DNA of 64,000 bases from Tetrahymena thermophila SB210 (Eukaryota; Ciliophora; Oligohymenophorea; Hymenostomatida; Tetrahymenidae): NCBI RefSeq assembly GCF_000189635.1, contig NW_002476426.1, positions 1,550,001-1,614,000 of the forward strand, written 5' to 3'. A program made the translations under genes and the position numbers. Shown here piece after piece: positions 33,242-63,977 of the stretch; positions within the stretch are counted from its first letter, which is position 1; each line of letters begins with the position of its first letter. The notes below the pieces were generated by a model that saw nothing but the letters and a program-made list of their open reading frames with translations, searched no databases and was not told the DNA's origin.

Positions 33242-36200
33242 ATGAATCCATTCTTTAAGCGAAATTCATATCAAAGCGAAACTTCAAGCAGTGGAGACCC
33301 AATAAATTTATAGCCCACCATATTTATTAATAATAACTATAATTAAAAGAAAGAGTAATTATAACTTTTTTAAAAGTGTTTATCTATTTTCTTATCTCTT
33401 GCCATTTATATACAATTTTGAATTTAAATTGGATAAAGAGCAACTATAAGAGCAATAAAATTATTTGAATTTTCTAATAAAGTATTATTATTATTCTAGA
33501 TTAGCAACAATGATAGATTAGTAGAATTACATTAATAAAGAAAATAGTAATGATGCAAATATTTAAGCCTAATCTCAATTTGCAGGACGTAAAATATCTA
33601 CCACTCAAAATATCACTGTGAAGACTTCAAAAAATAGTAAAATATGTCTTAAAACTTTAAGTTATATGTTCATTTAATATTAGAAATTAAAGTTAGCAAA
33701 TGCAATCAATTTCATAGAATACAATTATTTGTTTTTGATCTTTATAATAGGTTTTAATTTTATAAAAAATAGAAAAATTCCCTATTCCTTTAATGCAAAA
33801 GTCAATAAAGTAAAGAATTGGAGATTAATTTGGATAAGCATATATAGTTAGAGAAGACTTGGATTTTGATAGCCCTGAAATATATGCTCCTAATATGACA
33901 ATTGAATCTATTACAGATAAAAATAAATAAGGAAAGCAAACAAGAAGCAGCACTTCTAAGCATGTGCCAACTCAATCAACAAAAAGCAAAAGTTCTCAAA
34001 AGAATTCATCTAGATAGCCTAACACTACTAAATCTAACCCAAATTGTTAAATTGATCTTTTTTTTAATCACCTAAACGAGTACCCTCAATCTAATTAGCA
34101 AAAGCTTGTATAAAATGTAAATTCAAATGGATACTTAAATGGTCAGCAGTAACAATAAGCATAGATAACAAAAAAAGCATAGGAAAAGAATGGCCATGAA
34201 TAGCACTCACATAAAAGAACTGTATCCAAGCATAATGGAGGAAATAAGAGCACAGTAGCTCTATCAAATGCAGGTGCAAAGAAGAAATCTAAAAAGAAAA
34301 CAATATCATTAAAAGGCTTGAATAATACACAAACAACTTCTTCAGACATGAACACCATTTCATAAATTCCATCTGACTCTATTAATATATTTAACTAATT
34401 CGTTCCACCTTCATCAGTCCATTAATAGTAGTCTCATAACCAATAAATTAACTTTAATGGGAATTAATCTGTTACAAGTTAAAGAAGTAACAATCATCAT
34501 GGTAATTTTAACAAATAATTTTATCTTAATTCAAATAATAATATCTAATTTAATAAAAAGCTCTTTAACAACTGAATCTTCTTAGCTAAAATCAAAATAA
34601 GTAAGGATAAGACGGCACTGCTTTTTATCAAAACTAATAAAATAATAGTTTTTGTTCAAATTAATTTTAGTAGAACTAAATCAATATGAATCAGTATAAT
34701 AATTTGAATAATGAAAACGGTTAAATTTGTCATACTTCAAATACTGCTACATTTGAAGCTCATGGGACTATAGATGTTGAAGACTATAAAATAAATGGCA
34801 ATAGAAAAAATAATTAGATTTTTGGTTACCAAAATGAAGATAGAAAACAACGTACAAGTGCTTCAAAAAAGAAATTAAATGCCTCCAAAAGGTAGTCTTC
34901 GAGATCAAAAAGTGCAGGAAAAAAAAGTTTATCTAAAGTTAATGCAAGTATGAGCTAAGTAAATACTACTTTTACAAAATCTAAGTAGGTTGATTTAAAT
35001 AAAACTGACACTCTTAATGTCACAAATAAATCCTTTAGTTAAACAAACAACAGTAATTAATTTAATTAATTAATAAATATATTTTAAGTTTTAAGAAAAA
35101 ATTCTTCAAATAAAAATAGAAAAAAAGACCTAAAGAAGCCCAAGTGGAGGTCATCAAAATTCTAACTTAAATCAAATAAGCATCGATAATATCAAAAAGA
35201 AAAAAAGTAAATATATAAATTTTTTTAGTTATATTATGATGGGATTTAAATGATTTTTTTTTTATTAGTTTAAGAAATTATTTAAAAGTAAATCGAGCTC
35301 GAAAATGAAAAGAAAATTTAATAAAAGAAACTGTAACTTCAAATTGATAATGAAACTATTAGGATTAATAATGGATAAAGATTTTTGAAATAGAAGGCTA
35401 AGAAAGATGATCCTAAATTTCCTTGGGGATTTAACTAATAAAAAAGATTCTCATAGCACAGATCAGAAAAAAGCTAAGAAAGAATCAACAATCTTAATAA
35501 CACATAAAAGTATGATGAAACAAAAAGAAGAGAGCTTTTTGGGCTTAGCTTTTTAAATAAGATAGATGAAAATACCTTACAAAGTATTAAAAAAAGTAAA
35601 AATATTAATTTATAAAGAAAAATTGTTTGTACTAATTCACTTTTTAATTAGAAAATTAAGAATAAAAAGAACACAAAGAGTAACAATTTGAGCATCACCA
35701 TAGTAATAGGGCTTAAAAGACTTTGGAAGAACATTAAAATATTTTAGCTTTCATGGAATATTAAAAAAAAAGATAAATAGAGAAAAGTAAAGAATTAGAA
35801 TAGGAGAAAAAAGAAATTTAAAAGATGAAAGTTGAGAATTTAAAAAAATTAAATGATACTATTAAAAGGTAATAAAGATCTTCACGTTCTAAATCTGTTT
35901 AAAAGAAATCCTTTATTATGAACATAAACGATAACTAACAGAGTTAGAATAGTTATTATTAAATAAGATAGGGACGAAGCACTTCTGAGGATGCCTACGC
36001 TCTATAAAGAGTTCCCTCAGACTTCATCAGATAATAGCAAGTTTTACATAATAAGTTATTTTTACAGCAAAATACAATTATTAATTAACAACAAAGTGAC
36101 ATAAAAATTGATATTGAAGCTCTTGAAAATGAATAAAATAGTGATAGAAAGTTTAGTTTGTTAAATAATGAATGCAAGAGTATATTGCATTAAGCTAAAT

Positions 36201-39200
36201 TAGAGTAATAAATAAATAGATAATATTTTTTAAAATAATATTTTGAAAATTTTTCTTTTTTTATAATTAATTATAGGTAAAATTTAAAGCAATAAAATTT
36301 AAACTTGTCTATCGTGTCAAATAAAGGAGATAATACTAACCAAACTTTACACTAAAATTATATGTAAGTAGGAAGTCACCCTGGAAAGATGAGCTCTGGA
36401 TAAACTAGTCTACATAGCTTTATAACAAAAAATAGTAAAGAAACTTCAAATTAAAAAGTACTTTAAGAATCAAATAGAAATCAAATTATTCATTAAAAAT
36501 TTGAGCAATATTTAAATATTTAAAAGAGGCTTTAATTATTATAAGATTAAATGCTACAAAAACAACAACAACAATAATAGCTATAAAACTAAGTAATTAT
36601 CTAAAATTAAGGAGGTAATTAGTAATAATAATAATAACAACAATTAGCACTCTAAAGCGTTGATTAATACTTATATGAAATTTAAAACTAACTTTAAAAT
36701 TAAGAAAACAACTATCATGAAAATACTCAAAATATGTATTATATTTAGCATCCTGAAGAAAGTTAAAATAATAATTTCTAGTCAAGTAATGAGAACTAGC
36801 ACATACCCTCTGAAAGTGATGTGGATCCTAGATTGGTATTGGAATCTTCTTCTTCATCAATAGATTCAGATTACTCTTAGAGAAAAAATATTAAATACCA
36901 GTAACAATAGTAGAACAATATATAATAAAATGTAAATAATATTTATTTATTTTTTTTGTTTTTAATAATAATTTACATTTATAATAAGGGAGCTCCAATT
37001 TAAAATCCTTCTAAACAAAACTACTCTAACAGATACTCTAATTAGGATAGCTAAATCAACTACGAAAATCACTCTTCTAATAGATTGAATGAAGAAGTTA
37101 ATTAAGGAGAATATGAAATAGATAATTAACAAATTCATATTATATCTCCCTTGGAATTTAATAGAGGACCATCAGATGTTTTATCTTCGTAAAATGAATC
37201 TTCTAGAAACTAATAATGGAACCAAAATTTAGTTAGTAAGGATTAAAATATATAATTTAATGGTGAATTTGAACAAGATATGGAAAACTCTTAATCAAAG
37301 CAAATTTCTTCTGTTTCAAATTAGAAAAATCAGAGATCGGATTTCATGTATAACTAAAGCAGCTAAAGCTTCCATGATATCAAAGACAGTTCAAGATAAT
37401 AAATTGGAAATAGTGGAAAAATCGATGATTCTAGTAAATCTAATAAAATATAAAAGAAGCAATACGAATATGAAGATCCAGATTATGATAACGATGATGA
37501 AGAATTGCAACAAATCAAGTAAATTAGAGATATCGAACAACAAGCATTGCTAAATTCTACAAATGCAAATTTAAACAAAACAAATAATGTTTCAATTATT
37601 TCTAATTAGCCATTAATTTTAAATAACAATATAAGTAAAGAGTAAATGCAACAGGCCGCTATGCTTATTTAAAAAGTCTGGAAAGGCTACTACACTAGAA
37701 TTATTCTCGGCTATCGTCTTTAACAGATTTAATAAGAAGAAAATGATGAAAGCTTTGACCTGACCGAAGAGTAAGAAGATGAACTCTTGAAAATGTAGAT
37801 ACTTTAATATTTATAAGAAAGCAATGAATAATGGACTCAAGAAGAATTTGAGGAATATTTCTTAAAGTTCAAGCAAAAAAATGCTATTGAAAAAGAAAAA
37901 AGGAGATAAAAAAAGTAGCTCTAAAAGCAAGCTTAAATGCAACAACAAGCATAACATTATTAATAATCAGCTTCAGCTAAAAAGAGTGTTGTTAATGAAA
38001 GCTAAAATGAGAGATCAGTCAAATAAGAATATGAAAATAAGTTACACGATAGCTCAGAAAATAAACACATTGTTCATTCCTCGAGCTCTTATGATCTTTA
38101 ACACATGGATTCTAGAAAAAAACAAGAGAATTCATCTTAAGAAAATGAAATAGAAAAAATCATTTCAAATTAGCATCACTTACATTTAAACTCTCTTGCT
38201 GATCAAAAGGTTTCAACTTCAAATAAATAAACAGACGAAATACTAAACACTGATGATTTACTCATGGATGAAGAATAGTATATTAAATCAGCACAGAGAT
38301 ATTAATACATTAAAGAAAACTAACCTCATTTGATTGACAATTAAGTTGAAATTAACTATGATGAACTTATGAAGCTAGGTTAAAACCCTTCCAAATTCAG
38401 TCCCGGAGATCATTAAAAAATTTAGCAATAAAAAATGAATATCCCTTTCCATCCAATCGATCCTAGGTATCAAGCCCAGCAAAAAGTAAAATTTTAAATT
38501 ATAATATCAAAATTGATTTAACTCTGTACTTATTTATTTAGGAAATGCAAAAGGTTTAGGAGTAAAATACTTATGAAATGGAAAGCAGTGAGGGTCACCA
38601 ACAATATGATTACGAAGATGATTAAGAATACGAAAATGAAGAAATAGATGATTAACAGATTTTGAATTTTTTGAAACAAGGAATAAATTTGAACCACTTA
38701 GGAGGTAAAGAAACATTTGACATTTAGAATAAAAAGCTAATAATTTAAGATGGAGATGGACTTTATGAATTAGATCTCTCTTAGTTGCCTGGTATTAATA
38801 ATCTCCATTTCAAGGAAGATTAATATGCCTAATCTAACAGAGATTAATAAAAATCTGGATAAAAATACAGTGATATAGAAGACTTAGATTCATATTCTTA
38901 AAGGAACAAATTAAATACAAAAGAAGTAGGTTAAGGCGAGGAGGAATATGTTAATTTTGGTAACGAAGAGGATGAAGACGATGATGACAGAGAACTCGCA
39001 GAAATTAACAACAATATTAAATAAATTGAATCTACCAATAAGGAGAAGGAATTCAATAAGTTGTAAAATATATCCAAGAACAGAAAAGTTAATCTAGGAA
39101 TAGAAATTGATGATGATCCAACTTACAATGATTCAGCTTAAATAAACTTCTTGAATAATAATATTTAAAATTAAGCAGCTAGCAAAAAGAGAGAGTAGTA

Positions 39201-42200
39201 ACAATTACCTAATTAAGCAAATAACCAAAAGAGTGTAAATGGATAATTATATGAGAATTAGTAAGCTGACCAATCTCAGTAATAATCTTCTGCTAAAAGT
39301 AAATATGAGGGTGAAAAAAGTCAAGATCACACAGGAGAAAAAATTAAATAATACAACCACTACATGGAAAATTTGGAATTTTCTGAGAAAAAGGCAGCTT
39401 CTGCTCATCAATAATCTCAGTCTAACGACTATAATAATAGTCATAATCAAGAAGGAGAAGGTGAGGAAGAATTCGAAGAGTACGAAATCGATTTTGAATA
39501 ATTGTTGATGAAGGATAAATACTAAGACGAAGAAGGTAACATTTTCATAATTGAAAACGGAGATAAAATTTATTTGGGGGAAGAAGAAATTGAAGCCTTA
39601 AATGAATATGCTGCTTAATTTATGCAAAGTAAAAGAGTGAAAGAGGATAATTCTTTCGAAAAAGATAATGACGAAGAAGAAGTAGACGAATAAGTTGATT
39701 ATGATGGTTAGCATCATTTAGAAGACTAATATGATGACGAATAATTAGATTAAGAAGAAGAAGATGAAGATATCTATGATAACCATATTTAGAACTAAAT
39801 GAATAATTACCACAATAGGGATCAGTACGACGACGAAGATGACAACCATACTCCTGACGAAGCCTATAATGTAAATAAAACTAATAGTAATAAGATGTAG
39901 CTCAATAGAAACAATTAATTTATTTTATAAAATTATAAAAAATAGGAAGAAACTCTAACTGATTAATAATGCCTATAATAGGAATAACCTGAAGCTAATT
40001 TTAACAAAATCGGCTCCTCTTCTTCTTAAAATAATAAAGAAAAACAAGAATAATAAAATATATAATAATAAGCTAACTAAAAATAAATTAATAATTAAGA
40101 TAATCAAATATAAACAACTTTCAACAATTAAAAAAATTAAAATACAAATATTCACCAAAACGATGATGTCACTGATATTGATTTTATTGCTAAGCAACAA
40201 CAACAACAAAAATCTTTTTAAAATTTTGAAAATAATTCTATACAAACCCATGAAAATATTAATAAAAACTAAACATCTTAACAACGTGATGAGTTATTAA
40301 AAGAGTTTTCTGTTTCTTAGCATAGCGAAAATTAAATTTTTAACAACAGCAATCAAAATTAAAGTATCAACAGCCAAGACAATTTTTAGAATGGCAATAA
40401 CTTAAATAAAACAAATCAAAATAATCTCAATATCTCAAATTAAAATAATTTCAATTTAAATAATTAAAATTTCAATAACTTAATTTAAATTAATCCCAAT
40501 AGTAATAGTTAAAATTCTAATAGTAGAAATTAGAATCTTAATAATAGCAATTAAAATTTTAACAGTCCCTAAAAGAGTTAAACCCAAAATTTCAACAATG
40601 AAATATTAAACAGTGATTTCAAGCAGAATGACTTATCTTAAATTTCATATAATGAATTCAAGTAATTGCAATCAGATTTAAAAACAAAATAGGAATAAAT
40701 AAAATAATGGGCTGACATTGTCAGTATGCTATAAGAATACGATTAGAATAACCCACAGTCTCTCATTGAACAAATAAAGTTAAAATCTTAACAGAACTTC
40801 TAATAGCTGGCTAATGAATTAAAGAATTAAGAGGGATTAGTAAATATTTTCTAATTTTTTAATTTATTTAAAAAAAATATTTCTTAATTATAAATAGAGT
40901 CAATAAATATTAGAAAGCCCTTAACCCTTATTAAAGGAGTAAGAAAAATCACCAATAACTAATGATGATAACTCAAAGAGCTAAAGAAGTGCTAAGAAAA
41001 AACTTGTGATTGACGTAGATAAAATAGAAGATGAATTTCTATAAAAAGTTAGGCAATAAACATTCTCTGCATAAGATATGCATTAACTTAAAAAAGATCA
41101 GAAGACAAAAAGTTAATCTTAACTGGTTTAATCATAAGATCAAGTTATCGAATATGACAGCTAGAGTTCAGAAGATATCACATCAGCATCAAAGCTCAAA
41201 AGAAAATTCATTTAGCAAAGGGGATCTAACATAGACTCACTAATACCTTCTTTCTAATTCTCTTCAAAAACTTTAAAATCAATGGCAACTCCTGGAAAAA
41301 TAAACACTGATTCTGAAGAAAGTAAAAATATACCTAATATAAATACACAATTATTTATTTGTTTATTCAATATTTACTAATTATTAATTTTTAAAAATTT
41401 CTAAGATGAAGATGGAAGCTCTGCTACTGGTAGTCTTTTTGAGGAGGCTCCTTTCCTTGTTTTTTATCAAAAGTACCGTGAAGTAATGAAAACTGATTCT
41501 ATCAATCAGATATTAAAGTTTAGAGAACAAGCTTTAATCAAGAGACACAACATCGAAGAAAAGAATCTGAAAAAGAATCTAGAAATTAATCGCATTTCTC
41601 CCAGAACTTATGACATTAAGAGATTAGAGCTTGAAAAAATGGTCACAAAAGAAAGAGAGTAGATTCATAAAACAAGATAAGATATCGAGAGGACTTGGAA
41701 TCAAACAGCTCAAACTATAGCAAGAACTCAAAGAGATCTCATGTTTTTAAAAAAAGTAAAAGCTAATCAAGAAATGAATCCCACACACACTCATAATCCT
41801 CATTAAATGCTTTTGCTTAATATGAATACTCCACCTCCTTTGTTTACTGAGGGTAATGAGATTTTAAGTTCTCGCAACCCGATGTACAGCAGCTAAAGCT
41901 CCAGTGCTTTTAAATAAAGAAGAGTATTGTTTAAATCAGAAAGTGAAACAGAAACAGAAGGAAGCTGGAAACACTACAATAGAAATATGAGATACAATTT
42001 AAATGATATTAAAACACCTGATAATAACTATAGCCAGAATATAGTTGTGATTGATTCTTATGAGCCAATTGATATTTCTAAAAAAAATAACAATAAATAA
42101 TAAGATAAATCAATAAATTTCTCTAAAACTCTAGGTTCTACAATCACAGGCAGTTTAGATGAGAATAATAGTTAGATAGTTAATACAAATCGTAGTCATG

Positions 42201-45200
42201 CTAAAGTAGAGTAAAATTCTTCAGCTAGATAACGTAGCTCTTCTTTAACTTCTGAAAGGCTAAAAACTGATTAATCTTAAAGAAAATATAGTTCTGAGAA
42301 TTCAGAAGGCGATGCTCACTAAAATAAAAAAAAGGCTGATTTATTAAATTAAGATAAAGATTTGGATTAATATGAAGATGATTTTGATGTTGACATTAAT
42401 GAAGATATTGATTAATCAAGTGACTCTAAAATTCTTTAAAAGAAACTTAAAGAAATGAATATCCAAAATTAATTTGAAGCAGACTTTTAGGATTTATAAA
42501 AAGAGAGAGAAGAATTTGAAGAAAATTATAAAGATTTAGATACAACAGAGAAGAAAAATATTTATGAGAAAACTGATTTTTCTCTGGATGACTAGTAAGT
42601 CAGTTAAGAGATTTTTGATGAAAAAAATATTTACACTTCATCTAGAAAGTTATATGATGTTTTAATCCATAAGCAACCTGAAGAGTATTTTAACTAATTG
42701 CTTTAGTAGACTCCTGCTAATAACGTTTAAGACAGTGCAGATAGCAAACAATTTAGTTAGGAATCCATCTAAGATAGAGCACAAAAATTAGTAAATCATA
42801 CTGACTCAGATGGTACAGATTAATCTAAAGAATTTAATAGCATATCAAGTTCTTAGAAAGAAGCAAATATCATACAAAAGAAATTGTTTAATAAAAATGA
42901 TCAATTTGAGTAGGTAACTGCAAGCTATGATGCACCAGAAGTTGACTTTGAAAACTTAAGTGAAAACAGATCTCTTGATATGAACTCATCTGTTTTCTAA
43001 AAGACACCTGCTCAAATAACTAAAAATAACAAAAACGGTATTAAAGGTATTGGATAACGCAACTATAGAGAATCTCATGAAAATGGAGAATTCAGCTCAG
43101 AGAATATGTTTTGCTCTGCATCAAGCAATCTACAAGGAGTCATACAAGAAAAAAATGCTACTGTTCTTTCTAGCTTAGATTGGGAGGGGTAGCTTAGTGC
43201 GAGATAAAGCGCAGAAGAGAATGATTTAAAGCATTCAGGAAATAAAATATTGTAAAATCAAGCAGCAGGACGAAATCCAAGCACATTTGAAAAGAAAAGT
43301 AACAATAATGCTCCATAAGGCAACAATAATATTTTGATGGCTGAAGAGTTAGATACAAATATTGAACAATATCATTTATAAAACACAAGTTACTAAAACC
43401 AAGTTTAAAATCTCTGTGCTAATTATCATAATAATTACTCTTTAACAGAAAGCATAAACACTTGTTATGGTTAATTAAGTACTAATAGTGCCATTGCATA
43501 ATAAATATAGTAAAGTAATCAGATTCATTCTTCATATAAGTAAATATTCCCTAAATCATCTAATAAATCTTCAGCAGAGAAATTCTCTGATTTTAACTAC
43601 TCTTCTTCAAAAGAATGTACCTTAAACTTTGTTGATGACCAAGATACTGCATAGAAGCAGAAGAGAGACTTGTAAACTTAGAATACTCAATAGTAATAGC
43701 AAAATCAATAAGGATTTATCTACGACATATAAGATGATGATTATGAAATAGATCTTGAATATGAAGCTTCTGCAAACAAATAAAAATCTATTGCCCCTCT
43801 TTAAAAATCAGATAATAAAGGAAAGATCTTAAACACTAAATAAGTTCCTCTCTAAACACCAATCGAAGAAGAAGAACTCACTTAAGGAAAAGATGTAAAT
43901 ATACAAAATTTATCATGCAAATATGACAGTGAAGTCTTTGTTGAAGAATCTGTAGATGATTAAGAAAAAGACATCTTATAGTTTTCAAACCTAATTAATC
44001 CAGTATTTACATAATTTTTTTTTTTTTCATTTATTTTAAATTAAATTTTAATTAATAAATTTAGAATGCTATTTAAAACATGCAGCCTTTGAATACTGTT
44101 GAAGATAGTATCACTGAAGAAAGTGAAATAGCAGAATAAGTTCACATAAAGTAGAGTACTAGTTTACCAAATAGAGAAATAAATGATGATGAACTTCCTT
44201 CATCTTATGTAACTAAAGACTAGTTCGTTGATTCTTAAGAGAACTAAGAAGATTATGATTATGAAGAAAGTGCTTTATCCGTTAATGCATTTAATACTGA
44301 GCTATAGTTAAAAGAATTACAATAAAAAACAGTTAAAAATTAAAACGTAGATTTCCTTTGTGATGATTTGATTAATAGTTTGATGGACGAAGCAACAGAA
44401 GGTAAAGAATTAATTAAAAAATCAAAATTATAAAAAATATTTAAATATAAAAATAGAATTCAGTAAAAATGAAGAAATCAAAAGAAAGTTAAAAAATTGC
44501 TCAGAATATTTCGAAACTCTTTAATGTAAATTTCTTTTTTTTTTCAGTATTTTTTTTTAATTATTTGGAAAAAAATAGCTGAGTAAAATAATTTATAAAA
44601 AGAAGCATAAAAGTATCAAAGCTATTAAGATCAAGAAAATGAAGACGAGGAAGCAATAATCTAAGAAGAATTAAGTAAAAGCTCAAAATATTTAAATATT
44701 TAAACTTAAATAACTTTATATTAATTAGGTATAGCACAAAAAGAATATGGATAACCTTCTTACAGCCTTAAATAAAGATTAAGAGGTATTCAAACTTAAG
44801 TCTCTGCTATTAGGGAATACTTATCTAAGCTTAGTGAATACATAATTGGTAATTAAATTTTTTGATTCTTAATAATTTCATAAATTCCAAATTTTAACTA
44901 GAAAATTATTTGGACACATTTGTGGAGCGTATAAATTATAGTTTGGGTCCTACTGCTATTGAGATGTTAAGATTTTTGCATTTTACTGACTAAAATAATA
45001 GCTTAGATAGCTAATTAGATAACTCTTCGGATTTCTCAATGCAGCATTCAGCTGTACTTATTACAGACTTGTATTCTACTTTTGAAATGCTTCTTCTCGA
45101 GGAAAAGAAATAAAAGAAATAATAGTAAAAGCTTGAAAGAGAATAGAATGAATAGTCAGAAAATTATGTATGTGATGATACAGATGAAGAAGATATTGTT

Positions 45201-45789
45201 CTCTCTGAATAGCACAAAGTTAGTTTGAAAGATATCACTCATATCCACAATAAAGTCATTTTCGATGCATTTAACGAAGCTCTTGATAACCATAGGTTAT
45301 ATGGACTCAAAGGACGTCCATTCCCATGGAAAGTTGATGCTACTAAAATTAATAATGCTCCTATTACCCATGATAAAGTTCCATCAATATTAAGGAAATC
45401 AGTGACTAAAGTTATTGAATGGGCTGAATGCCAATGCGGATTTATATTTGACAGACCAGATGCTTAACTACCTACAAACTAGACTCTGAATGAAGAATAT
45501 ATCTCTAAAATAAAAGAAAAAAGACTAACTGATATGCTACATTCAGAAGTTAAAGAAGCAGAAGAGAAATGGATCATTTATGATGATGAATACACTGAAG
45601 TAATTGATTTTAATTTTCTTTAAATATAACATTTTTAATAAATTTATTTATTTTATATTTTAGATATAAGTTGAAATCTCAGAATTGGTATTTTAAGAAC
45701 TGTTGTTTGAATTCGAAGGCGAGCTAAGTAAAATAAATAATAAAAAATTAGGGCTCGATTAGAATATTAATAATGAAAATAATAATTGA
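33242..45789 (+). CDS. Giant scaffold protein, 3,792 aa, IQ motif and C-terminal DUF4378/TRM-like domain, 18 exons
   Basis: Exons, all phase-consistent: 33242-33354, 33500-33636, 33773-34501, 34561-35052, 35096-35206, 35269-35595, 35652-36204, 36277-36931, 36989-38485, 38542-40839, 40898-41321, 41406-44002, 44065-44401, 44457-44525, 44579-44674, 44729-44848, 44902-45599, 45664-45789 (TGA 45787-45789). Most of the protein is disordered: basic Lys/Ser/Gln N-terminus, acidic Asp/Glu runs near residues 1650-2000, an Asn-rich tract about 2130-2240. An IQ motif (AAMLIQKVWKGYYTR) near residue 1260 predicts calmodulin/centrin binding. Residues about 3520-3785 form an ordered domain with HIHNKVIFDAFNEAL, RPFPW and final VEISELVFQELLFEFE, matching the DUF4378 pattern of plant TRM and CEP350-like centrosome/microtubule scaffolds. 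A basal-body or cortical role is inferred. The 43-base intron at 35053-35095 is the shortest and least certain. Confidence 0.8.
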
Positions 45790-48158: not shown

Positions 48159-51100
48159 TCAAGAAAGAAGTAAATCTGTATATGTAGTTATTTGTTCGTT
48201 TTCTCTTAACTATATATAATGACTAGCAGAAATAGTTTGAATAAAACTATCAATATCTATAAAATCCTAATTAATTATAATATAATTATAAATGAAATAA
48301 CATTTTGTCAGATTTAATTAATTAATTACTGTTTCTAGGTCTTTATGGATATAGAAAAGAAGTTCTTTGATATATCTAGGGCGATCGAATAAATATGTAT
48401 CTATTAATTTTTATTTATTAACATAATTATTACAAAGTAGTAAATAAATAAATTAAATAAATCTTTACCTATTTCTAATTTGCATGATTCTATTTCATCG
48501 AACCAAGATTCGGTGTTTATGAATTGAGCCTTTTCAATCATATCATCTCCTGAAGAGTTTAATTTAAGTTTTTCGAAGTAACCTTCTTCTTCTGTTTGGG
48601 TAGGAATGTGAGAGCCTGATAAGCAAATATATGTACAAATATCTTTACTGTTAATGTACCCAGTTATGTTTGGATCAAGATTTTAAATTAACTTTTAATA
48701 AGTTTTTATTGTGTTATTCCTCCAAAATTCAGGTAGATCCCATTTACTAATTTAGTTTAGCTATGATTTATAAAAATAATAATTATTTTTAAAAATTAAT
48801 GTTTGTGAGCAAGATCTTAATTAAATTATTTACTGTTTTTCTTGTTAAGAGTTGCAATAAAGCACGAGACTCTATTTAGTTATTTTCGTTAGTTATGCTC
48901 TTTAGTTCTTCTATGATGATGTAAAGTTATGAAATAGAAAATTTGTTTTCGTACAATGGTTCTTTGGCAGGTAAAATTATTGGCTATTTATTTATTTGTT
49001 TTTTTGAAATAATTTAGTTTTGTTTTGTTCTTTATAAAAATAGAATTTTACTGGAGGTGTTAGGAAATTGAGGATTTCATGAGAAATCACAATATCGACA
49101 AAATTGAGTTGAATTTCTTTTTGGATCTTTTTCTCTTCTTCAATATATTCACGGAAGATAGCGTCCATCTGATTTACAGCATCGTTTTCAACTTTAAAGG
49201 TATAGTCTATCCAGTCTTAAAGCTTTCCATAAAGGAGCTATGATTGAGCTTTCATTAATTTTAATTTGCTCAAAGCAAAATCCTTAATTACTTAAACTCT
49301 GTATCTAAAAATAGCCTTTTCCATATTTATTGCTTCCTTTTATTCTTTTTCTATAGGAGTAAGTTCTTTCTTTTCTTCTACTTCCTCTACAGCATTTTTA
49401 CCACCCTTTTTGACTGGTGGTTTCTTATCATCCTTTTTAGGAGGAGCTTTAGCTGCTCCCTTTTTAGCACCAGGTTTTTCTTCTACTTCTTCTTCTCCTT
49501 GATGAAGCTTTAATGTTAAATCAACAAGCTTTTCTAATCTAGGGAAGTTATTATTCTCTTCGATAGGAGGTAAACTTTCTTAATTTTATACTATATCGTT
49601 TTTAAAGTATTCAGGTATTTCTTATAACTCTCCTCCTTAAATAAGTACGTAGTAATCGTTAATTATTTACTAGCAGCTGAAGCTTCTACTTAGTTCAGCT
49701 TAAAGTAATTATTAAATTAAAAGCATAAACTTTTCAATTTCTTTTTCGATCCAGCCAGATTTAATGATTTGATTACGCTCTTCAGATGCTTCGTCACGCC
49801 TATTTTATTTTAGATATTTTTAGTTTAAACAAACTCGAAAAACAAAAAGCAATCATAATTGCTGCAAATAAATTTACTTAGCTTCTATAATATCATACAA
49901 TTGATCATGAAGATCTTCAACTCTTTAATGAAGCTCTTCCTTTGTTTAATCTTCTTCACACATATCAGGGTTAAGCTCAACGAACTTATTATATTCTTAT
50001 TGGAACTACCTCATTAGCATCTGTAGATTAAAATTTGATAAATACCGTTAAATTTATTCAAAAAAATGTAAATTTTTACGAATTTCTAATCAGGTCTTTA
50101 AATGAGTTCTAAAAACCTCTTTTGGATATCATGGAATCTTAAAAGAATAGACTGTTTTTACTCTCTTAAGTTGTAGAACACAAATTTGCTTGAATTAATA
50201 TAGATGTCTTGAGTATTTTTCCACAAATTGACAAGGTTTTTAAGGGCAGTAGGATTAATTTTTATACTTGCTGAGAAATTTTAAAGATCTTGTAAAATTT
50301 CTTCTCTTGTTGTGAAAAGCCACTAATTATTTATTAAAAACTCGTTCAAAAAAAATAAAAAAATAAATTTAAATTTGATACTTTTGCTTCGTTTTCTTTT
50401 TTTATTCTTGCAATTTCTTCATCTTGTTTTTTTCTTTCTTCGATGCTATCGAGTTTATTCTGAATAGCTTCATATTTTTGCTCTTTAGCTATTAATACCC
50501 TATCAATAATTTAATCTACTTAGTAAAAAACTTCATCGATCTTATCTTTTCCATTGACTTCTTGCCATACTATTTAATAATCTTATTATACATTGTATTT
50601 GGATTTTTAAGGAACTAATTAATTTTATGTTTCCCCATTCTCAACTTATTCTTCTGGTTGAGAATCTTACACATTTTATGCATTTTCTTCTAAATTCTAA
50701 TTCATAGATCCTGCTTAGTGCTAATTGTTAACCTATTCATTATTCTCTAAAGTTCCTTATCTACTGTCAGACTATTACTAATCTGATAAAGGGTGTTCTT
50801 CTTCATTCAAAGTTCTAATCTCAAATTTATTTCCAAACATACTATACCATTCCTTGAGCTACTTAAAATTATTATCTAATTCACAGTTTTTATCAACTAT
50901 AGCTAATTCAGAAGTGCCATATTCTCTTATTTATTCAAGACGTTCAATTAGAGGAGCATTATCAACAGGAGGAGGATTGTCATCCAAATGAAAATTTTGT
51001 TTAGTTAAAGGATCATATCTCCTTCCAAGTGCTCTGCGAAGACTTTCTTTTTTATCAATGTCTATATAGATGACCAAATCTAATCCAGGTTTAATTAATT

Positions 51101-54100
51101 AACGAGGCTTTGTTTCAACTTTAGTAGGTTTGACAATTTTTTAAGCTTTTTAGATAGAATCCTCAAATTCACTTTAAATAATCTCATCCTTTGGAAGAAA
51201 TCCTGATATTTCCTTTTCTAACAGCTTCGCTTATTCATAAGTGTGAGGGAAGTCTAGTAAAACAATGCCACTTGTATATTTATGAGTGCGGTTAATTAAG
51301 GCATTACGGAAAGTATCTTCTTTAGTTGGTGGCATTTATAAATCTTACCCTAAGTTAGGGAGTTTAAGTAATTATTCGTTTTCACTAGGGATACTCTTTT
51401 GAGCAAGCTGTTCAAGGAATTATTATTCAGTAACCTCAGGATGTATTTATTTTAATACGTTCTATATAAGTTTAATGTAATACTCATCAGGGATGTTCTA
51501 ACCAGTATACAAGCACTATTCTATTTTCTAAGCTAATTAGATACTCTCTTCATCTAATTCTACTTACTAATTTTCTTCTTCAATTTGTTACTATGAAATT
51601 CTTGCAGCTGCTATGTTAGCTTAAGATTTATTATTACGATTACTTCCACCACTAACATCGTTTCTCTCAATCTACCCAACACTATTATTATTTGGACGAC
51701 TACTGCTCTTGCTACTGCGAATCTTTTCCTCACGTTATTGTTACTGTACTTATCTTTAGTATGCATGATATTTTTCAATAAGCTCATTCATAAGAATATC
51801 AATTGAGAGAAGCTTTACACCATATTTTTTAGATATTATATTAGCAATAGTTTTTTTACCAGAGAATTGATAACCTAGAATTGCAAGTTTTAAAGGAAGC
51901 CAATCAAAATGATTGATAACTTCTCTCTATGATTATTCTATTTCTGAGCTGTAAAAATCTTTCATAATCCCGACTACCAAATTTCCTAAATGATAATTAT
52001 TTAGAGTTTAATTTGGAATGTATTTTTCATCATTGTTCAAAGGATCTTCTCCTTAATATTCAAAACGGTGTTAAGGAATCCATTCCCCACGTCCCTCTAA
52101 ATAATCCTAAAGTTCTTAATCTGCTAAAAAGTCCTTGCTCTCAGTTTAAGATTACTCCTAATTTCTTAAATTTGGAATAGTTTCGTAATTCCTGAATTAC
52201 TTTTCTTTTAAGAGAGGCTTGTTATCAATGAATAGTTTTATTTGATCATTTAAAAAGTGAGAATCAATATTTTCATTATCTTATTATTGCTATTATTCAT
52301 AGCAAATATTGGCTAAATCAACTAGCTGTTCTATTAAATTTCTACATTTAGAATACACATCTTTACGGTTTAACTGCTTTTCACTAATCTCTATTTCCCT
52401 TTAACGATTCAGTTTACTGAGAATATCATTTTCATTTTCTTATCTAAGAATTTTCAATAATTCTTCCTCTTTATACTTAGCATTTACTACATTAACTTCA
52501 TTTTTTTGCTTATACTTTTCATCTCTAAGAAATCTATCTTAAATAATAATTTATTTGCACTAATAAGCTCTCCATACCTCATATTCTATTTCTTTTTCCT
52601 ATTATTATTGTTAATATTTATTTATTTTCTATTGTAAATAATTTTTTATTTATTTTACCTATCTTGATTGCTACTCTAATTTTTTTAAAACTAGCTCCTC
52701 TCTTTTTCTCACTTCAATATCTCTCTAAAATTTAGCCTAGTCAACAATCATTTTTCTTCTTCTTTTATCTCTTTCTTTCCTTAAAAATTCATTAACTTGA
52801 GATTTTTCCTTGATTCTTTTCATAGTAGCAGTTGCACTGATAGTGTTTTTATGTTCTAAAAATATGTATTAATGTTTATTTAGATATAAAATTTTAGTCA
52901 GTCAATCAAATAATAAACTAAGTACCTTTTTTAATAATATTTCCATCTTCATCTTCTTCAAGCAAGAGTCCTTTTTTTTTAAGAGTTTCTTCAAACATGT
53001 CAATATCTCTATTAGTTTCATTCTTCGTTAACTCCTTAATTTAAAGCCTTTTAGTTTCTTCCTTTTGTTTTTATTTATAATCAAATTATTTATCTGCTTC
53101 TACTCTTTATTTGGTAATTTCTTAATTCTTTTTCCATTGCTCTAAACCCTTTTCATTCCAATCTTCTTAAAAAGCCATATTTCTTTGCAACTTGTTAAGT
53201 TCAATTTTTCTCATTTACTCCTTTAATTACTTTTCTTTTTCTTCCTCACTTTCCTTTATCTTCTTTATATAAGCATCTTACTATATTTTGAACTCCTCAA
53301 ATTTTTTAAGGTGGTTATCTTAGTTAACTGCTTTTTACGATCTATTTAATTAATTTAATCTTTAATTAAAGAATTTTGATTCCATGTTGGCAAATTAAGC
53401 AATAGGTGGATTTATTCTCATCAAAGGAGTTACTGTATTATATTTTCCAGCCTTGCTATTTATGATAACATCTGCAGGATTATTAACCTTTTCAAGTGCC
53501 TAATAAAATATATAACATTTATTTGATAAAAATAAAGACCAAAATTCTTCTTTAAAAATACTAAAAAATAGAACTTATTTAAATTAATTTGAAAAATGAA
53601 GATATAAAATATTTAAAGCATTTTTTATAATTTTAAATATTTTAAAATTTACCATTTTTAGTTAATAGAGAATTTATGATGCCACATCTTTTCTACAATT
53701 AATAATATCATCAACTGTTTGCGAATTAAATTTCACTTTTAAAGTTCTAAATGTTGGCTATAAAAGATCGAAGTTAGTCATCTTAGCTTTTCTTGTATCC
53801 CTATATTTTTATATTTCATAAGTATTTACAATAATGTTGGTAAATCATTTTGCAGTTATATAATATATGCAAAAACTATATTTTTAATTAGATTCAATCA
53901 ATAAACTTTTAGATTTAAATTCAATAAATACCCAAATACTTATTTAAATTAGACTCCTAAAAATCATTTCTATATTTTATTAATTTCTAAATTTCTATAA
54001 AATATTTTAGATTTCATGCTTGCTTATTAATAAATAAATGAAACAGATTAAATCTAAAATAATTTAAGGTTGTTGAAATTTATGTTATACGCGTTCTTGA

Positions 54101-54242
54101 ATTCTTTAAAGTTGAGCTATTGATTATACTTTGAAAGTAATTCACCAAAATAATAGCCATTCGCGAAATCCTATTCAAATGAAGTTATCTTTTTGGTAAG
54201 CTAAACTTCATCGTTAAGCCAAGTAAAGATTAAATCACCCAT
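48159..54242 (-). CDS. SPEF2: SPEF2/CPC1, central-pair C1b projection protein, 1,680 aa, 12 exons
   Basis: Exons 54242-54091, 53800-53653, 53499-52926, 52855-52659, 52598-50382, 50322-50080, 50020-49878, 49799-49052, 48983-48834, 48760-48469, 48400-48330, 48266-48159 join in phase. Residues 1-100 form the CH-like domain (MGDLIFTWLNDEVQL, DFANGYYFGELLSKYN, LQPTFRTLKVKF). A long Lys/Glu coiled coil follows. Then comes the nucleoside-kinase-like domain with P-loop GYQFSGKKT at about residue 599 and later SGIVLLDFPHTYEQAKLLEKE and DLVIYIDIDKKESLRRALGR. A Lys/Pro-rich linker (GAKKGAAKAPPKKDDKKPP) precedes further helices. Domain order and length match vertebrate SPEF2 (about 1,800 aa) and algal CPC1, which build the C1b projection of the central apparatus and are needed for normal ciliary beating. 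Divergent from UQCRH, 0.9 kb away. Confidence 0.92.
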
Positions 54243-57165: not shown

Positions 57166-60100
57166 TCAAGCATATTATGTGTTAGGTTTATAAATGTTAT
57201 TCATTAAATTTTATTACTATTAATTTCCTCCTGAATTAATGTTACTTGTTTAACTCACATAAGAAATTTGCTGAGGTTAAGGTGAGGTTAAATTTAACTA
57301 GGCTATAGGAGTTGAGTTAAGTTATGCAACTGCTTATGAAGAAGTTAGAGCGCTGTTTAGTTTACTATTGTATGTACTAGGTATAGTAAGAGATATAGTT
57401 TAAGGTTATCCATTTTAATTTTATGAATTTAAAGAGGAATATTATTAATTAAGGGGGTTTATTTATAGTTGACTAGTGTTGCTTTAACCAGGAGTTATGC
57501 TTTCAGTTGAGTTATATCCATTTATGACATCAAAATTATTTTTATTTTGATAGAGGTTTATACTTATTACGTTATTAGATGCACCTGCTGATGAATATCC
57601 ATTTTAGCTTGATTGAGTATTTTAATTTGTTATACCTGTGCTAATTTTTCTATTTTGGTTAGTAGGAGAGCTTAGCTTTTGGTTTTAAATCTTTTCAGCC
57701 GGGTTTTGGTTAGACACTTGTGTTTGCATCAGATCAATATCAGAATCAGAGTTAAATATGTTTGATGCTAAATTTGAGAGCATTAAATGTCTCTAGAATT
57801 CTTCTGAACGTTTTTTCTTTTGTTTATCGATTACATCTTAAACTAAATGGTTAACTTTTTTATTAGGAGACAATGACTGATATTTATTTTAATTGCCAAT
57901 ATTGTTTTCTTTTTCTACTAACGACTTTTAAGGAAGTCTATTTTTTAAAAAATATAAAATTATTAATTCAAAAATAAAAAATCATCTTAGAAAATAAAAA
58001 AAAATATACCCAAAAGATTTTATTCTTTGCTGTGTGAGAGATACCTGAGACTGAACCATTCCATGAGAAGGTGCTGATTGATTATACCTTTCTGATTTAT
58101 AATTTTATTCTTCAAAAACACGTTTTAATCTTTCAACTGAAATTTAATCACTTTAGCTTAGTATAAATCGTTAAAACTAAGAAGAATCTAATCTCTGAAT
58201 AAGGTCTTTTATTTCTTTTAATGTTTCCTAATTGACATCATTTGTTGACACAATATTGTCTAAGCGACGAATTTCCTGATAAATATTATAATTTCCCTTT
58301 TAGGTCTAGGATTAATTAGTATCTTGAACTGATTTTTCTTGTACTCCATAAATATTACTTGAATAACCTTGGTTTTGCTACTAAAATTATGAATTTAAAC
58401 CACTTTTTTCTTTTTCTTTATACAAATCCACTTTTTAAGTAACGAGAGAGCTTTCTGGCGTAGAAATTTTACTATCTTTTTGGCTTGATTGCTATTAAAT
58501 CCCTCTTGTGATTGATTCATTTCTTCTTTGAGAGCTGTTAGATGCAAGATTAATTGTAAATTTGCTTAATGAGGAAGATGAAGGAGTGTTGTGATTTTAA
58601 TGTCCTGTTAAATAAGAAGATTGACCCTATGAATTTGTATTCTAATGCGATGGTTTTTAACTAGTATTGCTGTAGAATGAGGAAATATTTTATTATGGAG
58701 GAAGAGAATGAGGCTTTTGATGGAGAGATGATATAGTTAGAAAAGGTGTTTGAATTATTTCATTTACTGCTTAATTTGGTGAGGCTTCTTTATTAAACTC
58801 ATTTGATTTTTTATTGCTTAATAAATTGTTAATATGATTGTTAAAGCTGTTACTTTTATCAGTTCCATTTATCCTTTCTAAAGATTGGCGTTTTTCGGAT
58901 CCTTAGTTTTTATTTGAAGCGTAAATCTCAGGGAATTCATCAGTTTATAAAAAATCTACAAGTGAAATGTCAGGGTTATTGCCTTTTTTCTATCCAGAGC
59001 TTAAAATGTTTTGTACTTTTTTGTCTATTAAATCTCCTTTCTATTAAGGACTTTCATTTAACTAATTTGATCTGTAATTTAATTGGTTTTCAACTTATTT
59101 AGTTACTTACTCATTATTATTAAGATTGCTTTAATATACTGTTGATGCGTTTGGGAATAAATCATATTCGTTTGATGGTTTATTGTTACTGTTATAATTA
59201 TTATTTGAACTTAAAAATTTTAATTTTTCATCTAAAGTTGAATGCATCATTGTGGCATTTTAAACTTGAGAGGGTTCTTCATCGTCTTTTTAAATTTTTC
59301 TAAATATGTTGATAAATTCTTTATATTCGTTTCTAGCATCTTACAATTTATTTGCTACTTATGGATTATTTGAATTGCTGCTGATATTATTGTTATTATT
59401 TGTGTTTAAGCTAATATTATTATGTTAGCTATTTAATTAGCTAACATTATTGCTTGAGGGTATAGTACTTTGTAAGCCTAATTTAGCTATTGAATTTGAT
59501 TAATTATTATTGTTGGAATTGGAAGCTAAATTTGTCTTTGAAGATACTTAATTTGGTGTAATAGTTAGAGCTTGATTAATTGAAGAAGTATTATTTGGAA
59601 AAGAGGAGAGAGCACCTACAGCTCCACTACTATTGTTTTTTACTCCCTAAGCTTGTTTCTCACGATGAGTGAGCACAGATTTCCTATTTATAATAGATTA
59701 AGCTATTGAAGACGGACTTTTGTAAACAGTTGAGAGTCTTGCAGAACTTTAAGTTGGAGAAGAAAAATTTTAATAATTATTGCTTGTAGACATTTAAGAG
59801 CTTGAAGCCATCAAATTTTTGCTAGCCATCAAATTCTAATTCAAATTATTAGGTAATGCTGTAGTTGAACTGTTGATATTGGTTATACCATTGCTGTTTT
59901 AAGTTTTTGAAGTTTCTAAGTTATTATTGTTTGTGCTTTTTGCTGTTTAATTAGGGCTTTATACTCTCATTTAAGGAGAGCCTGGAGCTTATCTTTACAA
60001 TCCCTAAGAAGTCATCATAGAACTCTAAGTAGTTTATGTTGGGTTTTTGGAGTTAAGAGTTGATGCCAAAGTAGTAGTTTTTTAACTTTGTTACAAATTC

Positions 60101-63100
60101 ATAATCCCGCCAGAAGAGGCAGAAGTTACAGCTAAGGAAGACGATGCAGAAGAAGATTGTCCACTGCTTATTTAGTTTTGTTTATTTTTGAAATCGAAAT
60201 AACCATTTTTTTCTGTGAAAAATTTTTTGTTGTTAGTATTCTAAGAAGATGTTGAACGTAGAGCAGTAGATTAGCTAAAACTTGCATTTATGCTACTCTG
60301 CATTTAAATTTACAATTTACTAACGCTATTATTAGGGTTAGCGTCTGAAGAAACAAATCTTTTTGCTTCTTTGTGCTTTTAATTCGTTGTATTTGAAGTA
60401 TTTGTTAGGTAAATAGCACTTGAATTGCAATAAAAGGGTGCAGATGTAGCTGAATGACTAATATTCTTATTATTTGCATGTGTTTTTTATACAATTGTAG
60501 ATTGATTTTACATAAAATTGTTTACGATAGGTTCTTGCTTGATGGAGTCACTTTTTGGAATCTGATTACCTTTAGATGATGAAGATGAATTTTTGATAGG
60601 CTGTGTGACTGAACACTTATTTTCAATACAATTAATACCATCTACTTGATCCTTATATTAATTCTAAGTATTCTGATCTGCCTAGCTTAGAAAGGGATTG
60701 AAATTATTTTAAAGGTTGCCATTATTCGTAACATTAGTTAGAAAGAAAGAAGTTTAGTTAAATGGACAGCTCGTCATAGAAGGCTAAGACGAAAAAGGAT
60801 TAAAAACAGAATTTGGATTTTAAGGACCTACATTTTGCTTACTTACAAAAGTCTACAGCATGCTCTAATTAATCTAGTTCCCAGATACCAAATTAGAAGG
60901 AATATTTTAAGAATTGACTGAACCTGAATTGCTAGCCAAATGCATAATGACTTATTAATTTTATTAAATTATTTAATCTTTTTCTTATAACTCTTTCTGC
61001 ATTTGTTTTATTTATTCTTCCATACTTTTAATTTGATGAACCTTCTCTTAAAATTAAGTTTAGAAATGCAAATGTTGTTATTTTAAATCAAGATTAGCAT
61101 TTTCAAGGTCGTTTTTTTCGATTTGTAAAATTTAACATGTTTAATTCATTGTTTTAACTAATTAATCAGAGCTGCTTTACAGCACCTACACCATTTATAT
61201 AGATAATTCTTATTTATTCTCTACATTTCTACGTAGAGCCTACTGCATATTTTCCAAAATATTTTAATTATTGGCCATAGTATTTTGCAGCTAGCCTATT
61301 CCTATCTGTAGCTAATTAATTTCGCTTTCGTGAGGCCATTATATCAAATTACTTTTCAGTTTTTTTAATCTCTGTTATTTTTCTTCAAGCACTTCTTCAT
61401 TTTATTTTTTTAAATTATTCAAATCTTGAATAGATTACTAAATCTCCCAATTCTCTTCTAAGTTTTTAAGTATTTTTCCGCACAACTAATTCATTTCTTC
61501 AGTAACCTTTTATTAATGAACTTACTATTACTTTGTAAAATTTAATTGAGAAGGGCTCCTCTTAAATAGAATAACACTTCCATTATTAGATGTATTAGTG
61601 CAACTAATTCTCACACTTTTTCCACTACTTGAAAAGCTGTCGTTATCTTACCATCCTCCCATCTGTTGAACTACCGCAGATGTAGTGGAATCTTATTTTT
61701 GTAGGAAAAGTGAAGGAATTCCATTAGCAATAATTTAAGATCTTTTGATATCATTGTTTATTAAATTATTTTACTCCATATTTGCAGGAAAAGTATTTGG
61801 AGGATTTATATTACTATTGAATAGCTCTGAAGCTGATGATACTTAATTTGAGGATTTCTCTTTCAATAAATATAAACCACCCACTTCTTAAGCATGTTAA
61901 TTTAACTAAGACTCGCAAGTAAAATTGGAATTATTTGGCATTTAATTATCGTTATTTGCTTAAACTGTTGAAGCAAGCTATTATTTCAAAAAATCTATTT
62001 CTTTTTTCATATTTTCTATTAATGTAATGTATTGCAAAGACTTTTAGGATGAAAGGCCCTAAATAGTTTTTTCGTTTTTTGTAACAACTTTTTGTATTCT
62101 ACTAGCTCTTTAAGCGTACTTAAGTGTGTTAAGTGTTTCTTCTAGGGATATGAAAGCAGGGCTGACGCAAGCAATCATGTAAGTCTGAGTGTTACCACCT
62201 AGTGAATCTTTCAGTAATCTAGTTAATTTTGAGTCTCTATAAGGAACAAATGCTCCCTTTTTAGTTGTATCAGAAAGAATATTAATACAATTTCCTAGTG
62301 CTAACAGAGATTTATTGATATTAGCACCTTCCTATAATCTCAAACCTTTATTCTCAGTTACCGCCGCTCTTTCAGAACCAGCTAAATCTACTAAACACAG
62401 CTTACTGGTTAAAACAGTATATTTATTATTTTATATATTGCTTTAAAATTCTCCTTTACCTTATTATTGTTCTGATTCTTAGTTTTTATTAGTAATAGTC
62501 TACTCAAGTGTAAATGTAATTATTGCATGTGATCTAGAACTAAATTCATTTTATCCAGTAGAAGCCATTTGTCTTCTTGTATTTCCTAGGCGAATGCATT
62601 CTAAGACCTATTGCTCAGAAATAATTTCTTATTCAATCAATTCAGGAACAAAGACACCTCTAGAAGGGTCTTCAATAACCATTAAATTATCATTATTTTA
62701 AGAATCAAGTGATAACAAGTCATGTATTTATTCGTTATATATTTCTAAATAACTTAATTTCAATCTAAAAGAAACTTATTTCTGTTGCTAGTTAGGTGTG
62801 AATCTATTTTCATCACTTAATTCCTAATTGCTATCATTATAAGTATCGTTTCTCTTTGAAGAGATGTAATCTTCTTCTATATTCTACTTCTTTTCTTTCA
62901 TTGATTCCATAATTTCTTTTAGAGATAGCATTATTAATCCCTTAATAGGAGAATTCATTGTAAGGTAGTTACAAATATCACCAAACATTGTGTAAGTTTT
63001 ACCAGCCCCAGTCATACCATATACAAAGCATGTGCAATTAAATCCCTCAAATAAACTTAATTTGATATCTTCTTTCATAACATAATCAAAAACTTCATCA

Positions 63101-63498
63101 TTTGAGCACTCCTCTCCAAAAGTTCTATTCATTTCAAATAATCTGTCATCTCTTACAGTTTGCGAAAAAACACTCTTATTGCTTTCACTAGAATTAATAA
63201 TAACAAACTTCCTATCATCTGCAACTTAAATTATCTTACGACTTCCATTTTTACCTGACAGTTCTTTCTAATTAAGAGGTCTTACTCTCACAAATACCTA
63301 CATAGTTTAATTTTTCTTTTATCGCTTTTTACTATAATTATTTCCTGCAGATTATTCTCTTAATCCAATTTATAACGACTCTATCATATGACCTCCTTCA
63401 GATCCATATCTTCTGTCTTTCTCTCCTTTACAAATATAAATTTATTTATTGAAATGAAAACAAGTAAAATATTCTAAAAGCTAATTAAAATTTTTCAT
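57166..63498 (-). CDS. Kinesin-8-like motor protein with long disordered tail, about 2,086 aa
   Basis: Exons 63498-58010 and 57937-57166 join in phase (TGA 57168-57166). The motor spans about residues 66-470: [16 protein letters not shown]-loop [13 protein letters not shown] near residue 160, switch I SSRSHAII, switch [12 protein letters not shown], then [12 protein letters not shown] and [16 protein letters not shown]. The LALGNCIN-L wording and [21 protein letters not shown] are typical of kinesin-8 (KIF18/KIF19), plus-end motors that limit microtubule or cilium length. An insert rich in Asn/Asp follows the P-loop helix. After a neck ([13 protein letters not shown]) come coiled coils to about residue 1000, then a Ser/Asn/Gln-rich tail to the C-terminus. 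The start is uncertain: ATG 63498 overlaps the TGA of an upstream frame, ATG 63303 begins directly at the motor, and coding-like DNA continues upstream. Confidence 0.82.
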
Positions 63499-63977
63499 CA
63501 AATCTTTCTTTAATATGCTATTATTTATTCTCTATGAATTATTTTAATTTCTTTAGTAATAACATTATCACTTTATTTTATTTGCTTTTCAATTTCTATT
63601 TCTACATTAAATTAATCGCTACTAGTTTAAATATACTAGATATACTTTAAAATTCTTTTATATGCATTATTTCTAACATTCATGCTTCATTTTTGGTATA
63701 TTAGCAAGGTATCTTCTTAATAATATGCAAAACAGGCTTTTTAAAATAAAATTGTCCAAACGAATCTTTGAATACCTTAAACTTGTGAATTTGTGATTGG
63801 TTAGTTTCCCTATTTGCTTTAGTAAAGTTAGTAAGAATATAAATGCCTATTCTAAATACTTGTCCTTGAATCTAGTGATTTTAAGCGCTTTTCTCCATTT
63901 ACTTAAAAACTACTAACTAAACTACTTGTAGTTTTAAGATATTGCTTTTATATTCTCTCAGGCGACTTGACCATCAT
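63499..63977 (-). other. Coding-like DNA upstream of the kinesin frame, interrupted
   Basis: From ATG 63977 one frame reads MMVKSPERIQKQYLKTTSSL and on through ordinary-looking protein to TGA 63689-63687. The same frame then continues, again protein-like (MNVRNNAYKRILKYIQYI, VEIEIEKQIKQSDNVITKEI), to TGA 63500-63498, which overlaps the kinesin ATG. A shift of one base near 63540 would run directly into the kinesin frame ([17 protein letters not shown]). No GT...AG intron with correct phase was found that removes both the internal TGA and the shift. It may be the true 5' part of the kinesin gene with sequence errors or lesions, or a separate small gene. The window ends 23 bases beyond the first ATG. 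Confidence 0.45.

Follow-up and report, generated by a model that had tools for sequence, protein, structure and literature searches.

In the window, the whole 64,000-nucleotide stretch of Tetrahymena thermophila DNA analysed here, we found a spliced gene for a giant protein that ends in a DUF4378 domain; judged from its sequence, the protein is probably a scaffold of the CEP350/TRM type for FOP-family proteins, acting at basal bodies or on cortical microtubules. What computation establishes is the gene model with its domain match, the set of paralogues, a strict-consensus IQ motif and the presence of possible partner families in the genome. Within the known kind of DUF4378 proteins the giant appears distinct by its IQ motif, its size and its multiplicity.

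A spliced giant with a C-terminal DUF4378 domain

The window corresponds to C122:1550001-1614000 of the genome. Elsewhere in this genome, a telomerase reverse transcriptase locus agrees residue for residue with PDB chain 6d6v, the T. thermophila enzyme, along two segments of about 100 and 135 residues, and departs from it at the ends of the alignment, where the frame appears to enter introns; we therefore assign the window to T. thermophila. Long protein frames appear in the window when TAA and TAG are read as glutamine, while the standard code gives hardly any. Read in this way, Viterbi gene models placed one gene at 33242..45789 on the plus strand; it starts with an ATG at 33242, closes with a TGA whose last base is 45789 and encodes 3,802 aa (13.5% glutamine, 11.6% asparagine and 9.7% serine), with its conserved blocks in the same order as in five paralogues. 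Its 17 exons, all on the plus strand, lie at 33242-33354, 33500-33636, 33773-34501, 34561-35052, 35120-35206, 35269-35595, 35652-36204, 36277-36931 and 36989-38485 (exons 1-9), and at 38542-40839, 40898-41321, 41406-44002, 44065-44401, 44457-44525, 44579-44848, 44902-45599 and 45664-45789 (exons 10-17). The introns measure 53-145 nt, the longest gap between exons being 145 nt; since the model demands GT..AG borders and prefers AT-rich introns, such intron traits are no evidence in its favour.

Three models were compared. The first had its start fixed at the ATG at 33242 given in an earlier note on this DNA and was trained partly on the same locus; the second had a free start and a training set that included the first-model gene; the third, also with a free start, left the giant out and learned from 4,420 codons in four other open frames of the window. 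The first and third returned identical sets of 17 exons and 3,802 aa, and the second equalled both in gene ends, exon number and length. We regard the gene model as confirmed: the single spliced giant of the earlier note stands, while its 18 in-phase exons and 3,792 aa become 17 exons and 3,802 aa. The second run also put three short minus-strand models inside the gene, which we judged spurious. Downstream, the nearest sizeable gene model is a SPEF2/CPC1-like central-apparatus gene on the minus strand (48159-54242; PF22946; match to CPC1 of PDB 7n6g at E 6e-20), and a kinesin gene, also on the minus strand (57985-63567), has a motor domain matching PF00225 at 322 bits in a 1,861-aa frame.

The earlier note had described the C-terminus as DUF4378-like and had named comparison with that profile as a possible refutation. 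We found that PF14309 (DUF4378) scores 27.1 bits on the C-terminal 323 aa against a cut-off of 25.7, that is, 1.4 bits over it (E 6.1e-6 to 6.4e-6), and that the match covers profile positions 48-166 of 166, reaching the end of the profile. It lies at 45180..45711 on the plus strand (residues ~3622-3777), with the intron 45600-45663 inside. Because the match is modest, it was tested on relatives of the giant: DUF4378 was matched near the C-terminus in all six paralogues (E <= 1; best E 1.2e-6), and in the five other giants the domain sits within ~230 residues of the C-terminus.

The conserved domain of this six-member family is longer than the Pfam match, extending over 44797..45756 on the plus strand (residues ~3512-3792) and split by the introns 44849-44901 and 45600-45663. 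Its alignment has 35 invariant columns, after one unmodelled intron stretch had been taken out of the C309 row by hand. The last presumed helix, EYTEIQVEISELVFQELLFEF (45588..45714, plus strand, residues 3758-3778, with an intron inside), aligned in all six paralogues with three invariant residues. A six-frame genome search with the PF14309 profile gave no match, a kind of search that does not prove absence. PDB searches with the C-terminus and with the C-terminal profile gave no meaningful match (E 0.23 or worse), and an AlphaFold2 model of the 232 aa of exon 16, predicted without an alignment, was unusable, with a pLDDT of 40.5 and a pTM of 0.22.

The paralogues came from a protein search of the organism's own genome (101 Mb, 445 contigs) with the C-terminal domain, which returned five further loci, C280, C309, C65, C176 and C37; searches with the C176 and C65 domains recovered the identical set of six. 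As the search scores best candidates only, six paralogues are a lower bound. The five loci were modelled at 4,015, 3,334, 2,859, 2,612 and 2,689 aa, respectively, and with alternative training at 4,034, 3,334, 2,915, 2,642 and 2,709 aa, the gene ends being unchanged. In a tree of the C-terminal domain, C65 pairs with C309, C176 with C37 and the giant with C280; in a tree of the central block described below, the giant is not paired with C280. In the accessible CEP350, FOP and DUF4378 literature on Tetrahymena, ciliates and Paramecium, outside which subscription papers mostly lie, neither the titles listed nor the text consulted contained a description of these DUF4378 giants.

Partner families and the plant and animal scaffolds

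FOP is reported to bind the C-terminal domain of CEP350, and in human cells CEP350 and FOP stand upstream of CEP19 (PMC5493781); human CEP350 is regulated by PPP2R3C, and its loss leads to centriole fragmentation (PMC12704290). In plants, the motifs of TRM proteins follow the order M5-M1-M3-M6-M4-M2, with M2 at the C-terminus in all 34 Arabidopsis TRMs (PMC12197291). The series M3-M4-M2 is also present in human CAP350, where M2 recruits FOP (PMC4357431, PMC6300067), and the CAP350 M2 motif binds plant TON1 in yeast as well (PMC4357431). TRMs are described as acting through TON1, a relative of FOP, with PP2A as part of a plant TON1-TRM-PP2A complex (PMC6300067). By its place in the domain, the last helix of the giant's DUF4378 domain would correspond to the TON1/FOP-recruiting M2 motif of TRMs.

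Relatives of these partners are encoded in the Tetrahymena genome. FOP_dimer was matched at seven places at E <= 1, four of them clearly over the cut-off and a fifth (C9) exactly at it, and LisH_2 at six places, four over the cut-off (C9, C270, C291 and C91). Three gene models, of 394, 301 and 580 aa, were labelled FOP-like in this analysis; their number equals that of the FOP-like Tetrahymena proteins, TtFop1 among them, named in a published account (PMC6070722). We assigned the label FOR20-like to a 172-aa model, for which the FOP structure 2d68 gave a match (E 6e-4), and the label OFD1-like to models of 976 aa (C9) and 638 aa (C91); the latter two proteins are coiled-coil-like and have LisH_2 over the cut-off near the N-terminus. 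The three FOP-like proteins come from C291, C418 and C209, and those of C418 and C209 have in common, as seen by eye, a C-terminal stretch NPMF.S.ED..GAS.SYG.DQSV.S, possibly a second conserved FOP motif. The 602-aa model on C78, whose FOP_dimer match stays below threshold, has a long C-terminal part and seems to resemble ARMC9.

CEP19 was over the cut-off at three of five matched places, and EF-hand_13, which we take to be the PP2A B'' domain, matched one locus in two pieces. SAS-6_N, included as a control centriole family, was over the cut-off at ten places, here grouped into six loci; its matches fall on C131, C179, C138 (two places), C441 and C184, which is above expectation for a cartwheel protein. 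Since this control is also multiple, the numbers of CEP350, FOP and CEP19 relatives are not specific to a joint module, and an argument from their co-expansion is weakened. The other control, HYLS1_C, had no match anywhere in the genome and is uninformative.

The giant is like animal CEP350 (CAP350) in its predicted character as a giant scaffold, in a conserved terminal stretch lying where a FOP-binding M2 motif would be expected and in the presence of FOP and CEP19 families in the same genome. Compared by description, the Tetrahymena giants differ from CEP350 in being without the CAP-Gly signature, in having at least six paralogues and in their Asn/Gln-rich and acidic linkers. They differ, too, in the IQ motif found in five of the six; we know of none in CEP350. 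The CAP-Gly signature, G[KRQ]N[DN]G, occurs in none of the six giants, and a Pfam scan of the giant, covering 10 of its 17 exons and the C-terminal 323 aa, listed no CAP-Gly domain, the paralogues being covered by the signature alone. CAP350 itself is counted among the CAP-Gly proteins (PMC4357431), and because the signature is absent we do not call the giant CEP350 proper.

With plant TRMs the giant shares a DUF4378 domain towards the C-terminus, membership of a multigene family, TON1 relatives in the genome and, putatively, an M2 position at the end of the domain. Unlike TRMs it carries an IQ motif, and typical TRMs are several times smaller. A Stentor gene named CEP350 is listed among the centriole/basal-body genes of oral-apparatus regeneration (PMC9371601); this is a ciliate gene from a basal-body list, considered here by its name.

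The likeness to TRMs could be taken further, to a cortical DUF4378 scaffold, part of the epiplasm, of rootlets or of cortical microtubule bundles, with neither a basal-body role nor FOP binding. The absence of the CAP-Gly signature fits this alternative, several paralogues would fit several cortical arrays, and published accounts of plants agree with it, since beet TRMs are mostly annotated DUF4378/DUF3741 (PMC12574335) and TRM1 is located on cortical microtubules (PMC4357431, PMC6300067). Against it stand the FOP-family and CEP19 relatives encoded in the genome; and because TRMs also act via the FOP relative TON1, a cortical scaffold of this type has much of the same partner logic. We consider it rather unlikely and favour a scaffold that does hold FOP-family proteins.

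The IQ motif and further conserved blocks

The giant contains a strict-consensus IQ motif, IQKVWKGYYTRIIL, at 37667..37708 on the plus strand (residues 1258-1271), which agrees with the earlier note's placement of such a motif near residue 1260. The strict motif occurs once in each of five of the six paralogues, beginning at residue 1258 in the giant, 1634 in C309, 1334 in C65, 1367 in C176 and 1265 in C37, against 0.045 expected by shuffling per set of six paralogues. C280 has no strict IQ motif, and a profile built from the five copies was also without a match there.

The Pfam IQ profile, with a cut-off of 20.3 bits, was exceeded in three of the six stretches (C309 21.1, C176 28.8 and C37 23.0); C65 fell just below it at 19.8, and no match was listed for the C280 stretch tested. 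For the giant itself the profile remained sub-threshold: a 65-aa piece scored 16.6 bits, and no match was listed for a 133-aa piece at E up to 10 or for the complete exon at E up to 0.1. Around the motif, blastp gave short matches in several pairs of paralogues.

The earlier note had seen the IQ motif and the DUF4378-like domain as the only ordered parts, and this does not hold, as three further blocks recur in paralogues. Near the N-terminus, a GRKI motif lies at 33585..33596 on the plus strand (residues 67-70); the pattern GR[KR][IL] falls inside the first 204 residues of all six proteins, and shuffling the first 300 residues 500 times never placed it in more than one of them; it had been chosen by eye from these same six proteins. 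A WG..QQK / RR..GL..L block follows at 35412..35561 on the plus strand (residues ~568-617): WG..[QE][QE][KR] is present in five of six (absent from C65) and RR..GL..L in three of six, and the blastp matches of the giant's block are weak (C176, E 6.7e-4; C37, E 7.6e-4).

The central block, at 41435..41767 on the plus strand (residues ~2448-2558), is probably helical and was matched by blastp to all five other giants. In iterated profiles, run on the six giants without a shuffled control, the C-terminal domain linked all six members, and the central block every member except C280. For this block Pfam yielded nothing reliable, and no PDB match to its profile was better than E 0.23. Sixteen Pfam families were listed, HEPN_RES_NTD1 for two members and the other 15 for a single member each, the best E being 0.0012; we judged these matches to be due to chance because the sequence is coil-like. 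The block may resemble a stretch of human CEP350, a likeness that we did not use as evidence.

That five of the six paralogues place the strict IQ motif after the N-terminal blocks and ahead of the central one would suit a protein in which calmodulin- or centrin-type binding is the main function, namely a Sfi1/Sfr-type filament that binds centrin or calmodulin and whose C-terminal domain serves merely as a dimer or anchor. Sfi1-type proteins have many repeats, however, whereas each of these giants has a single strict IQ motif and C280 none. Matches between the paralogues are, moreover, far stronger in the C-terminal domain than in the IQ region. Tetrahymena does possess a Sfi1-repeat protein, reported as Sfr1 (PMC5112337); all in all we hold a filament of this type to be improbable for the giant, and continue to prefer a scaffold organised around its DUF4378 domain.

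In the six giants the blocks follow the order GR[KR][IL], IQ, central block and DUF4378, with the IQ motif absent in C280. This shared arrangement at six loci argues for one gene and one protein, and is the main evidence for this. That the model instead fuses two or more neighbouring genes, leaving a shorter DUF4378 protein, is very improbable: the very long low-complexity exons, the splice sites taken from a home-made model and the three opposite-strand models that this model put inside the gene speak for a fusion, but the block order recurs in the giants of five other loci, no gap between exons exceeds 145 nt and excluding the gene from training leaves the exons unchanged. The combination of features that the earlier note had called unusual is not confined to the giant, as five paralogues have all or part of it; the overall interpretation given in that note is partly supported, by the DUF4378 match and its recurrence in all six paralogues.

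A candidate organiser of basal bodies or cortical microtubules

With its DUF4378 end and at least six giants, most of them with an IQ motif, the family offers a good candidate for a missing basal-body organiser. A role of the giant as a basal-body or cortical organiser is plausible, because relatives of the known partners are encoded and because Fop1 of Tetrahymena is known to stabilise basal bodies; it is described as lying asymmetrically on them and as guarding them against beating forces (PMC6813674, PMC6838636).

From these comparisons we infer how the giant may bind, where in the cell it may lie and what it may do. LisH/FOP-family proteins would be bound by the DUF4378 domain, whose last helix would take the place of M2, and the giant would thereby hold them on basal-body triplets or on cortical microtubules. 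Its long linkers, acidic and rich in Asn/Gln, may act as a tether or spacer, and the central block and the IQ motif may add docking sites, the IQ motif being a putative site for centrin or calmodulin.

A more speculative extension, which we put forward as doubtful, is that a CEP350-FOP-CEP19 module has been expanded as a whole, into six giants, three FOPs and three CEP19s, with a separate class of basal body or cortical microtubule array for each set; the IQ motif would then make the tether responsive to calcium or centrin and so tune anchoring to ciliary beating.

The DUF4378 giants would be direct candidates for what places Fop1 on Tetrahymena basal bodies. Plants are reported to deploy the same motif on cortical microtubules (PMC4357431, PMC6300067), and the family would connect the plant TRM and animal CEP350 systems via a third lineage of eukaryotes.
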